Assembly (NCBI RefSeq): GCF_024498295.1
Contig: NZ_CP101827.1
Span: 1,244,001-1,308,000 of the forward strand
Origin: Thermocaproicibacter melissae
GTDB lineage: Bacteria > Bacillota > Clostridia > Oscillospirales > Acutalibacteraceae
DNA length: 64,000 nucleotides
Direction of reading: 5' to 3'
Shown: positions 11,967 to 15,382 of the stretch, in pieces
Layout: each line of letters begins with the position of its first letter
How positions within the stretch are numbered: position 1 is the stretch's first letter
Notes under the pieces: generated by a model
What the model saw: the letters and a program-made list of their open reading frames with translations, nothing else
What the model was told of the DNA's origin: nothing
Databases searched by the model: none
Translations under genes and position numbers: made by a program

Positions 11967-12413
11967 ATGCAGGAAAATTATCTTATTTCCATAAAAGGCT
12001 CGCAGAGAGTGGACGGCGAAGAGGGCAGTGTAGAACTTACTACATTCGGCTCCTATGTAAAGCGCGGCTTAAGCCGTTACATTGTATATAAGGAATACGC
12101 CTCCGACACAGTGCCTGTGACACGCACTTCCATACTGAAAATCGACGGCAATAACCGTCTGACCCTGATGCGAAAAGGCGGAGACAGCACACGGCTGATT
12201 CTGGAAAACGGCAAGCGCCATCTCTGCCAGTATGACACAGGCTACGGATGCCTGACGGTCGGCATTTTTACCAGTCAGCTCGACTCCAATCTCGACGACA
12301 AGGGCGGAAGCTTGAAAGTCCGCTACACGTTGGACATCAATTCCGTTCTTTCCAGCATGAACGAACTTTCCATCACCGTCAAGGAGGCAAAAAACAACGA
12401 TGTTAAAAATTGA
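11967..12413 (+). CDS. DUF1934 (YwiB-like) beta-barrel protein
   Basis: A small cytoplasmic protein of 148 residues, predicted to form a calycin-like barrel. It is widely linked to argS in Firmicutes, with unknown function. The sequence alternates beta strands (YLISIKGSQ, SILKIDGNNRLTLMRKGG, LSITVKEA). The ATG at 11967 has GAGGGAG upstream; the reading frame extends 63 codons further without a start signal. Its end overlaps argS by 14 nt, which implies translational coupling. Confidence 0.82.
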   Translation: MQENYLISIKGSQRVDGEEGSVELTTFGSYVKRGLSRYIVYKEYASDTVPVTRTSILKIDGNNRLTLMRKGGDSTRLILENGKRHLCQYDTGYGCLTVGIFTSQLDSNLDDKGGSLKVRYTLDINSVLSSMNELSITVKEAKNNDVKN

Positions 12414-14094
12414 GCTCCAAGCAATTGAAGATTTAAGGAATGCAATACTTGCGGCAATCCGCTGCGGAATGGAGTCCGGCGCTCTTCCGCAGGCCGAGAT
12501 TCCCGAATTTACAATCGAAATTCCCGCTGACCGTACCCACGGCGACCGCGCCGCCAACGTGGCGATGGTCAGCGCAAAGGCTTTTCGCATGCCGCCGCGC
12601 AAAATCGCGCAGGTGATTGCCGACAAAATCGACCTGAGCAAAACTTACTTTGAGCGCTGCGAAATCGCCGGCCCCGGCTTTCTGAATTTTTTCCTTGCCC
12701 GCCGCTTTTACGGCGACATCATTAAGGAGATTTTGGAGCAGGGTTCGGAATTCGGCCGCAGCGACTGGGGTAAAAAGCGCAAAGTCATGGTCGAGTACGT
12801 TTCCGCTAACCCGACCGGCCCGATGCACATGGGCAACGCGCGCGGCGGTGCCCTCGGCGACTGCCTCGCAGCCGTGCTCGATGCAGCGGGATTTGACGTA
12901 ACGCGCGAATTCTATGTAAACGACGCCGGCAACCAGATTCTGAAGTTCGGCCATTCGCTGGGTGCGCGCTATCTGCAGCTTTTCAAGGGCGAAGATGCCG
13001 TTGAGTTCCCGGAGGACGGCTACCACGGAGAAGATATTATTGAGCGCGCCAAGGAATTCGCCGAGGTGTACGGCGACAAATACGTCAACGCCGACGCGGA
13101 AACCCGTGAAAAGGCGCTTGTCGACTTTGCTCTGCCGAAGAATATCGAGAAGATGAAGGCCGACCTTGAAAAATATCGCATTGTTTACGACAACTGGTTC
13201 TTGGAAAGCACTCTGCACAATGACGGAGAACTTCAGGAAACCATAGAGATTCTAAAACAGCGCGGCATGACTTATGAAAAGGACGGCGCTCTGTGGTACC
13301 GCGCGACCGCAAACGGTGCGGAAAAGGACGAAGTTCTGATTCGCCAGAACGGCACGCCGACCTATTTTGCGGCGGACATCGCCTACCACCGCAACAAATT
13401 CGCAAAGCGCGGCTTTGACCGCGTCATTGACGTATGGGGCGCCGACCACCACGGCCACGTTGCCCGCCTAAAGGGGGCCTTGGACGCCATCGGCCTCGAC
13501 GGAAGCAAGCTCGACATCGTTCTGATTCAGCTGGTGCGCCTTGTGCGCGGCGGCGAAGTCGTGAGAATGAGCAAGCGCACCGGCAAGGCAATTCAGCTAG
13601 CTGACCTTCTGGAGGAAGTACCCGTCGATGCGGCGCGCTTTTATTTCAATCTGCGTGAAGCCAATTCTCAGATGGATTTCGACCTTGACCTCGCGGTTCA
13701 GCAGGATTCGCAGAACCCCGTGTACTATGTGCAGTACGCTCATGCGCGCATCTGCAGCATTTTGAAAAATCTTGCCGCCGAAGGCGTACATCCGCGGCCC
13801 TGCACCGATGAAGAACTCGCCCTGCTGACGGCTCCGGAAGAAACCGAACTGATTCGTCACCTTGCCTCCTGCACGGAAGAGATTATCGCCTCTGCTCGCG
13901 ACTATGACCCGGCCCGCATGATGCGCTATGTCATCACGCTGGCGACGCTCTTCCACAAGTTTTACACGAACTGCCGCGTAAAAGGTGAAGAAGAAAGCTT
14001 GGCGGCTGCCAGACTCAACCTTTGCCTTGCAACTGCGACCGTGCTGAAAAACGTGCTGTCGATGTTCAAAATCACGGCACCGGAAAGTATGTAA
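12400..14094 (+). CDS. argS: Arginyl-tRNA synthetase
   Basis: It charges tRNA-Arg. The 564-residue class I synthetase has the N-terminal Arg-tRNA-synthetase domain, the HIGH-type motif HMGN, the KMSKS-type motif RMSKR and a DALR anticodon-binding C-terminus. AAGGAGG within the end of the upstream gene serves as ribosome-binding site. Confidence 0.97.
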   Translation: MLKIELQAIEDLRNAILAAIRCGMESGALPQAEIPEFTIEIPADRTHGDRAANVAMVSAKAFRMPPRKIAQVIADKIDLSKTYFERCEIAGPGFLNFFLARRFYGDIIKEILEQGSEFGRSDWGKKRKVMVEYVSANPTGPMHMGNARGGALGDCLAAVLDAAGFDVTREFYVNDAGNQILKFGHSLGARYLQLFKGEDAVEFPEDGYHGEDIIERAKEFAEVYGDKYVNADAETREKALVDFALPKNIEKMKADLEKYRIVYDNWFLESTLHNDGELQETIEILKQRGMTYEKDGALWYRATANGAEKDEVLIRQNGTPTYFAADIAYHRNKFAKRGFDRVIDVWGADHHGHVARLKGALDAIGLDGSKLDIVLIQLVRLVRGGEVVRMSKRTGKAIQLADLLEEVPVDAARFYFNLREANSQMDFDLDLAVQQDSQNPVYYVQYAHARICSILKNLAAEGVHPRPCTDEELALLTAPEETELIRHLASCTEEIIASARDYDPARMMRYVITLATLFHKFYTNCRVKGEEESLAAARLNLCLATATVLKNVLSMFKITAPESM

Positions 14095-14118
14095 CCGAAA
14101 GGATTACGGTGTATTAAC

Positions 14119-15147
14119 ATGGAGATTCCGTTTGGCCTGCCTGCGGTATTGAAAAAAGAAGATACGCCGGAAAACGGCGACGCTCCCGTTCGATTATCCA
14201 ACTATTCCGTCATCAGCGGCGGAATGGGTTCCTCCGGCGCGGAGACTTGCGTTTGCGGAGCCGTGTTCGGCCCCTCGGGGATTCTGTACGATTCCGAAAA
14301 GGAATTCGACTTTGACGCTGTTTATTCTTACTACCGCCAGAAGATATGCGACCTTAACGAAAGCAAGGTGCGTTTTCTGCTGCTGAATCGGCAGACGTCG
14401 CTTGCGGATATGCGCGCGGCGCTTCTGGCGGCAAGAGACAAAGACCTGCCGGTGGCCGCCTGCCTGACGGCTGACCGCAGAAGCAGGAACTGCAGTTTTC
14501 TTTCTTCCCTCATCACCCTGCAGGCGATGGGAATTCAGGCTTTCGGCCTTTGCGGTATTCCCGACGAGGCCATGTTGGAAAGCATTCGCCGGGCCTCAGC
14601 ACACACGACGGTTCCGCTTATCGTGATTGCCGACGCAAAACCCAATCAGTCCCCCGAAGAATATGCAGAAGCGGTTCGCCCGCTTCTGGAGGCCGGTGTC
14701 AGACTGCTTGGGTGCGGCCATGGAACCACCCCGGAGCATTACCGTAAGATTGGGGAACTTGCAAAAAAATTCGGCCCTCCGGATATCTCCGAAGAGCCTG
14801 ACTGCTTAGCTGCAGCGTCCGACCGTGAAACGTTCTTTCTCGGCGACGATATACGATGGAGCGAGCCTCTTCCCTGCTCCGCCTCACTGGTCGATAAGCT
14901 GATTGACCTTGACGACGAACAGGTCAATGCGGCGCTCGTCTATGTGGAGAGCGTCAGCGACGCCGAGCTTCTGGGCAAATGTGTCTCCATGTCTCGCCTT
15001 CCCATTGCGGTGCGGGCGGACAGTCCTGTTGTGCTCGACGCTGCCCTGCGCTATGTTCAGGGGCGATTGATTGTTGACTCGGGTTCCTCCATCGAACGCG
15101 ATGTTTTGGAACCGATCGCCGCAAAATACGGCGCTATTGTCTACTGA
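14119..15147 (+). CDS. Degenerate MetH-like protein (homocysteine methyltransferase plus pterin-binding remnants)
   Basis: A 342-residue protein that resembles the N-terminal half of corrinoid methionine synthase. Residues 70-215 match the homocysteine S-methyltransferase barrel (LPLIV-like strand, YAEAVRPLLEAGVRLLG, TTPEH). The last ~80 residues (PIAVRADSPVVLDAALRY ... VDSG) resemble the start of a dihydropteroate-synthase barrel. The zinc-binding GGCCGTTPEH is replaced by GCGHGTTPEH (198-207), and the upstream zinc cysteine region reads GLCG (143-146). No cobalamin or activation domain follows. The ribosome-binding site is weak. Methyltransferase activity is doubtful; a structural or regulatory role is possible. 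Confidence 0.65.
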   Translation: MEIPFGLPAVLKKEDTPENGDAPVRLSNYSVISGGMGSSGAETCVCGAVFGPSGILYDSEKEFDFDAVYSYYRQKICDLNESKVRFLLLNRQTSLADMRAALLAARDKDLPVAACLTADRRSRNCSFLSSLITLQAMGIQAFGLCGIPDEAMLESIRRASAHTTVPLIVIADAKPNQSPEEYAEAVRPLLEAGVRLLGCGHGTTPEHYRKIGELAKKFGPPDISEEPDCLAAASDRETFFLGDDIRWSEPLPCSASLVDKLIDLDDEQVNAALVYVESVSDAELLGKCVSMSRLPIAVRADSPVVLDAALRYVQGRLIVDSGSSIERDVLEPIAAKYGAIVY

Positions 15148-15382
15148 CGTCCTGCCTGTTATTGGTATCCTGTTCTTCGGTTGGTTCGGGAACCTGCACA
15201 TCTTCCGGCGGAACGTCCCAGCCTTCAAAGGCGATTGCCATTGCACCGAGCGCCAAGCAGCAGGCAATTCCTGCGAGCATAATAGCCCAGTTGGTGATGC
15301 CAAATGGGCCGATGACCATTGATGCAAGCGTCATCACAAAGCCGATATCGAACAAAATTACCGCAAGTTTCTCGTCATCCAT
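15134..15382 (-). CDS. Small two-helix membrane protein
   Basis: An unrecognised 82-residue protein. Two hydrophobic helices (about residues 7-25 and 30-51) are followed by a Pro/Glu-rich soluble tail. It overlaps the end of rsmA by 8 nt and is therefore probably cotranscribed with it. Its own end overlaps the convergent MetH-like gene by 14 nt. Confidence 0.62.
   Translation of the reverse strand: MDDEKLAVILFDIGFVMTLASMVIGPFGITNWAIMLAGIACCLALGAMAIAFEGWDVPPEDVQVPEPTEEQDTNNRQDVSRQ

Follow-up and report, generated by a model that had tools for sequence, protein, structure and literature searches.

An argS-linked MetH offshoot with half a folate barrel and an apparently repeated loss of the zinc site

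Introduction

Enzymes turning into non-enzymes are a known phenomenon. In the cobalamin-dependent methionine synthase MetH, as seen in the structures from T. maritima and T. thermophilus, a homocysteine barrel is followed by a folate barrel, and the same order is found in the protein described here. According to the available text of PMC12478193, split MetH is a working system, and folate-independent synthases are reported, in the accessible part of PMC7857596, to retain the zinc and homocysteine residues. Sequence homology between MetE and MetH is described as undetectable in the available sections of PMC539065. No published description of a protein like the present one was found in the open literature, with few subscription journals covered.

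The DNA analysed, hereafter the window, is a stretch of 64,000 nucleotides from Thermocaproicibacter melissae, and the gene under study, hereafter X, lies directly behind argS (Table 1). Handles of the form L and G denote loci and genomes respectively.

Table 1. Position of X, its parts and its upstream neighbour in the window
Feature	Coordinates	Strand	Remark
argS	12400..14094	+	immediately ahead of X (24 bases between them) on the same strand; often found beside X
gene X	14119..15147	+	MetH-derived, 342 aa; without recognisable zinc, homocysteine or folate sites
remnant homocysteine (S-methyl_trans) barrel	14251..14757	+	Pfam model positions 94-281
C145	14551..14553	+	shifted by one position relative to the first zinc cysteine (GL-CG vs GLNCS)
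GCGHGT replacing the zinc motif GGCCGT	14710..14727	+	X residues 198-203
C-terminal half-barrel, corresponding to the first half of the folate barrel in MetH	14788..15144	+	slowest-changing part of zinc-lost X
D320	15076..15078	+	Asn of the NS motif in MetH

Results

ORF reading of the window gave X as an open frame of 342 codons, as the first-pass annotation, made from the letters alone, had described it; the start codon is ATG. The Pfam model PF02574 (S-methyl_trans) aligned to residues 45-213 with an E-value of 1.7e-15 and 58.1 bits; this passes the gathering score (cut-off 22) and places X in the homocysteine S-methyltransferase family by homology. The NCBIfam metH model gave 39.7 bits, below its cut-off of 1010.85. 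The set of three zinc cysteines that goes with membership as a MetH (one in NC, two in GGCCGT) is not found in window X, nor are a complete folate barrel and a cobalamin-binding domain, and both the zinc pair and the homocysteine-site motif of an active homocysteine S-methyltransferase are missing. The lack of a cobalamin domain had been read correctly before, since the X frame stops at 15147 without one. The homocysteine barrel is also truncated at its front: 44 residues precede alignment column 101, compared with 97 in the zinc-bearing X of L034; this shortening did not figure in the first-pass annotation. The next likely genes after X are on the opposite strand. On that strand an 82-aa frame (15134-15382) shares 14 bases with the 3' end of X, and a counterpart of it stands beside a KsgA-like gene in seven other loci. 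The site scan returned two promoter-like sites (1.6 expected), none of them on the plus strand, and ten terminator-like sites (5.1 expected).

A structure model of X (pLDDT 85.8, pTM 0.87; three stretches below 50, the longest at residues 29-42) has eight strands ahead of the half-barrel and aligned to the MetH chain 1q8j_B over 320 residues with a Z score of 25.9; Foldseek gave a TM score of 0.73 by model length with both 8ssc and 3bof_B. As the alignment to T. maritima MetH runs from residue 4 to residue 435, where X ends, the chain stops halfway through the folate barrel. The half-barrel modelled separately reached a pLDDT of 86.2 and a pTM of 0.80.

At residues 198-203 the zinc-bearing relatives of X have GGCCGT or GGCCGS, and alignment with them confirmed the reading of GCGHGT in the window as a lost pair of zinc cysteines. 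The third zinc ligand is displaced as well, the window having GL-CG and most zinc-bearing relatives GLNCS. The alignment held 99 distinct X proteins drawn from 104 loci with a half-barrel hit; L060 and L067 were excluded as repeats of L003 and L014, and L120, L124 and L137 were excluded for a long frame of unclear start or one cut by the contig end. The zinc pair was kept in 39 of these proteins and absent from 60. Intact-motif relatives thus exist, yet window X carries no frameshift. The first zinc cysteine occupied its aligned column in all 39 zinc-bearing proteins and in 18 of the 60 zinc-lost ones, and the homocysteine-site motif DG[AGST][TMS]G was present in 30/39 and 0/60 respectively. 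At the level of sequence, loss of the site motifs in X is clear. With the first Met of each frame taken as its start, median length was 406 aa for zinc-bearing and 344 aa for zinc-lost X.

Within the genus of the window, X was found in seven of ten genomes, several of them incomplete, and all seven copies had open frames and no zinc pair. A search for orthologues sharing GCGHGT had been proposed; absence of the pair held throughout the genus, but the motif itself did not, as six variants occupied the position (GCGHGT, GCGQET, ACGKNT, GAGRNT, GCGQGA and GCGQNT). Even the nearest relative, L004, lacks the His, having GCGQET. A new zinc site formed by C145, C199 and H201 was considered and ruled out, as the six other genus copies have Q, K or R where the window has H201, and L007 has A where the window has C199.

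The earlier reading that only the front of a pterin-binding domain follows the homocysteine barrel was borne out by profile comparison as well as by the end of the model. When 62 related C-terminal parts were compared with six MetH folate domains using hhalign, the two profiles matched with a probability of 97.1 and an E-value of 7.3e-11; the matched region spans 55 columns and begins near the third strand. Residues 227-342 of the window protein had no Pfam match at E-values up to 1. Assignment of the half-barrel to a known domain was abandoned: besides the empty Pfam result, Foldseek of the half-barrel alone gave IspG, dihydropteroate synthase and MetH folate domains, with a single row (IspG) at an E-value below 0.001. 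In a sequence-profile search of the PDB the best E-values (about 2e-6) belonged to a pair of de novo TIM barrels, taken as an artefact of their repeats, followed by MetH-type folate domains at 0.003 and weaker.

The Asp of QID and the Asn of NS, which we take to be pterin-facing residues of the MetH folate site, correspond in the hhalign match to R299 and D320 of window X. By the same correspondence the QID Asp was kept in one and the NS Asn in none of the 99 X proteins, and both were missing from zinc-bearing and zinc-lost groups alike. The position of the DVN motif, placed by eye on the alignment, held Asp in 1/99 and Asn in 22/99. Other positions of the half-barrel were widely kept among the 60 zinc-lost proteins: G315, D320 and G338 occurred in all, L310 in 59, D281 in 57 and Y337 in 56, and position 301, two places behind the lost QID Asp, was Asp or Glu in 47. 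The Asp at 320 was found in 22 of the 39 zinc-bearing proteins. In this fold, positions such as D301 and D320 would be expected around the mouth of a TIM barrel, and this suggests a putative new binding site there. Since a half-barrel has open edges, pairing with a partner or with a second copy is plausible. Conservation of the half-barrel went together with zinc loss, in that profile A2 scored at least 56 bits in 59/60 zinc-lost and 22/39 zinc-bearing X, a comparison uncorrected for kinship and not neutral between the zinc states (12 of the 19 profile rows being zinc-lost and ten from family f1).

We then considered how often the zinc site changed. On a quick ArgS tree of 85 of the 99 loci, those with at least 120 ArgS residues, zinc state changed at least ten times; the tree contains long branches, support is weak for 29 of the 82 inner ones, several of the changes depend on single rows or on poorly supported branches, and ten is therefore an approximate count that cannot separate gain from loss. 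Loss is the natural direction because MetH and many X proteins share the intact zinc site, and on this sequence evidence the same zinc-site loss seems to have happened several times. As zinc-bearing X also lack the QID Asp and the NS Asn, loss of the folate site probably came earlier than loss of the zinc site.

Rates of change were compared by Nei-Gojobori counting in 19 pairs hand-picked for closeness, 14 of them from pairs listed among 314 with dS below 1.2 and five added (L003/L004, L083/L084, L064/L065, L061/L062 and L127/L128). In the 11 zinc-lost pairs dN/dS of the front part was 0.331, 0.120, 0.037, 0.092, 0.150, 0.133, 0.096, 0.186, 0.309, 0.131 and 0.139, and that of the half-barrel, in the same order, 0.101, 0.023, 0.007, 0.047, 0.060, 0.043, 0.012, 0.095, 0.040, 0.037 and 0.082; the values are rough for four pairs, L003/L004 included, in which front dS exceeds 1. 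The half-barrel was thus below the front in 11/11 pairs (0.007-0.10 vs 0.04-0.33), with overlapping bootstrap ranges in eight of them, whereas among the eight zinc-bearing pairs it was slower in five and faster in three. Window X and its nearest relative (L003/L004) gave 0.19 for the front and 0.10 for the back, rough figures at a dS near 1.5. Mean pairwise identity in the first alignment was 59% for the C-terminal part and 45% for the barrel among 14 zinc-lost X, compared with 35% and 50% among ten zinc-bearing X, which span more families. The dN/dS analysis proposed with the first-pass annotation therefore gave no sign of relaxed selection, the ten other zinc-lost pairs agreeing with that of the window. 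With its open frame and a dN/dS well under 1, X is no pseudogene but is kept by purifying selection, as judged from these substitution patterns. The suggestion that it is maintained for another purpose gained support in its first half, and what that purpose may be is taken up in the Discussion.

The link with argS extends well beyond the window, and genes matched along most of their length tend to stand behind argS. An argS gene stood upstream of X on the same strand at 88 of the 104 loci (two of them duplicates), with 1.0-1.7 kb between the genes in 26; of the 16 loci without visible ArgS, seven had less than 1 kb of upstream sequence and nine had 1.0-2.9 kb. When 26 loci were compared, one of them the MetH locus of the host, ArgS and X occurred together in 22, and the order Ddl, DUF1934-like, ArgS, X was found in 19, the names of the first two genes being our assumption. 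The initial search matched the X protein in 44 of 60 genomes (host included), many in MetH-length frames. Across the order of the host, the profile of the 116 C-terminal residues matched 117/295 genomes at an E-value of 1e-6, some through full MetH, and a broader profile, partly built from those hits, matched 78/295 at 1e-12. Class-wide, 100 of 291 genomes matched at 1e-6, mostly weakly and in MetH-length frames; 11 matches exceeded 70 bits, ten in the order and one (G327) outside. Named carriers include Faecalispora jeddahensis, a genus placed in Oscillospiraceae by NCBI taxonomy, Clostridium sporosphaeroides and Clostridium minihomine. Taken together, sequence and position establish X as an orthologous family, and its place downstream of argS and its conserved half-barrel put the window gene within it.

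Gene context was also inspected for a partner, and no common neighbour besides argS was seen. In the two loci read, the intervening gene, named by sequence reading, was protease-like in L095 and glycosyltransferase-like in L088, and no obvious shared frame was seen by eye downstream of X in L034, L041 and L053. In the window X shares the reading frame of ArgS, with one TAA between (14092-14119), and the open frame at this locus was given as 928 codons in one search and 350 in another. A read-through ArgS-X fusion was dropped as an idea, as the same spacing sign at 14 other loci is about what chance would give by a rough estimate. X is probably co-expressed with the arginyl-tRNA synthetase gene.

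Four hits from outside the order were examined. L138 (G327) resembles X and is zinc-bearing; L139 and L140, also zinc-bearing, are frames of 467 and 450 codons whose ends fall near the same place in the folate barrel; and L141 has GGNFGT, so that the zinc pair is missing there too. In all four the homocysteine barrel alone was above the Pfam cut-off, and no ArgS was seen in the stretches taken (2.5-3.8 kb each). These relatives imply that the combination of homocysteine barrel and half folate barrel may be older than the order.

The separate full-length metH for which a search had been advised was found in the host genome (C1:1842396-1844768; 791 aa), with GGCCGT intact and standing after MTHFR-like and activation-like genes, both named by sequence reading. 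All 25 genomes searched matched the homocysteine-methyltransferase family through MetH, X or both. The nearest relative, G001, which is 99% complete, has MetE (a 784-codon frame) and no MetH match and keeps a zinc-lost X. In G046 and G057 a zinc-bearing X was the only PF02574 match and no MetE match was seen; this X might be a working methionine synthase, or else the organism might need methionine.

Pfam labels the zinc-lost X of the window, L079, L083 and L087 as homocysteine S-methyltransferase, so annotations of zinc-lost X by this name call for caution. Four of the seven zinc-lost copies tested had no Pfam family above the cut-off. The degenerate X of L095, L111, L116 and L122 reached neither a Pfam nor an NCBIfam cut-off and would probably be annotated as hypothetical.

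Discussion

Our main reading, which we hold at a probability of about 0.7, is that X derives from the homocysteine-plus-folate half of MetH and is maintained as a non-catalytic protein that functions mainly through its half-barrel. The ancestor of X would have had a zinc-bearing homocysteine barrel and the first half of a folate barrel. The half-barrel, its pterin site already lost, would then have gained a function of its own; from then on the zinc and homocysteine site would have been expendable, and it would have disappeared on several occasions. In window X the homocysteine barrel would stay as a scaffold, which fits the rigid-body motion of the two MetH barrels reported in the available part of PMC10567725. 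X is probably non-catalytic, and a move of its selected function largely to the C-terminal half-barrel is the best reading of the data. There, the half-barrel would carry the larger share of the selected function, most likely through binding, either of a partner through its open edge or of a ligand at the face of D281, D301 and D320. Against this reading, the front of zinc-lost X is itself under purifying selection (dN/dS 0.04-0.33) and hence not free of function.

That same constraint on the front, together with the eight strands that the window model keeps before the half-barrel, would also be expected if the zinc-less homocysteine barrel had become a new enzyme catalysing another reaction, with the half-barrel as its structural buttress. 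We consider this unlikely, since no constant motif has replaced the zinc position (six variants in one genus), and in L087, a 275-codon frame in which the half-barrel persists, the Pfam barrel match covers only model positions 110-225 of 283 and the roughly 160 codons ahead of the half-barrel were judged too short for a complete barrel. Shortening of the front, as seen in the fall in median length, is what a decaying relic would show, an X without a role whose open frame survived by chance or through coupling to argS. Such decay is very improbable given a dN/dS well below 1 in every zinc-lost pair and D320 and G338 in 60/60 zinc-lost X; that all 60 frames are open speaks in the same direction but counts less, the search having required an open C-terminal frame. 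The MetH ancestry of X, and a host with MetH behind MTHFR-like and activation-like genes elsewhere, would suit an accessory subunit of methionine synthesis that regulates by binding MetH, its corrinoid or the activation protein. This role appears improbable, as X lies near argS and away from metH, and as G001 keeps a zinc-lost X in a nearly complete genome with MetE and without a MetH match.

A bolder version of our main reading, namely of X as a maintained, non-catalytic MetH offshoot, is put forward tentatively and is itself doubtful. Here the half-barrel would be a functional (beta-alpha)4 unit with a new acidic site at D281, D301 and D320 that replaces the pterin site, completed in trans by a second copy or a partner and having a role tied to the argS operon. 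If true, one lineage after another could discard the catalytic barrel of the parent enzyme. More generally, a single orthologous gene whose active site was seemingly lost about ten times, with one domain conserved, would offer many repeats of the same transition; the zinc-bearing orthologues would serve as natural controls, and the carriers include named strains.

Compared with MetH, X has neither the motifs of the zinc, homocysteine and folate sites nor the second folate half-barrel and the cobalamin domain. MmuM and BHMT (PF02574) share the barrel family and align with a Z score of about 16-17 over X residues 1-220, but window X lacks the zinc pair and carries a MetH-type half-barrel. In MtgE, the homocysteine subunit of split MetH, this module is likewise encoded apart from the folate and cobalamin modules; it is a working subunit as described in the available text of PMC12478193, whereas X includes a folate half-barrel and frequently lacks an active site, and by that description the two are set apart. 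The N-terminal barrel of MetE is similar to X in that, according to the available sections of PMC539065, its zinc and homocysteine sites are disabled and the barrel is retained in the protein. That barrel, however, belongs as a duplicated domain to a functioning enzyme (PMC539065), and X is free-standing.
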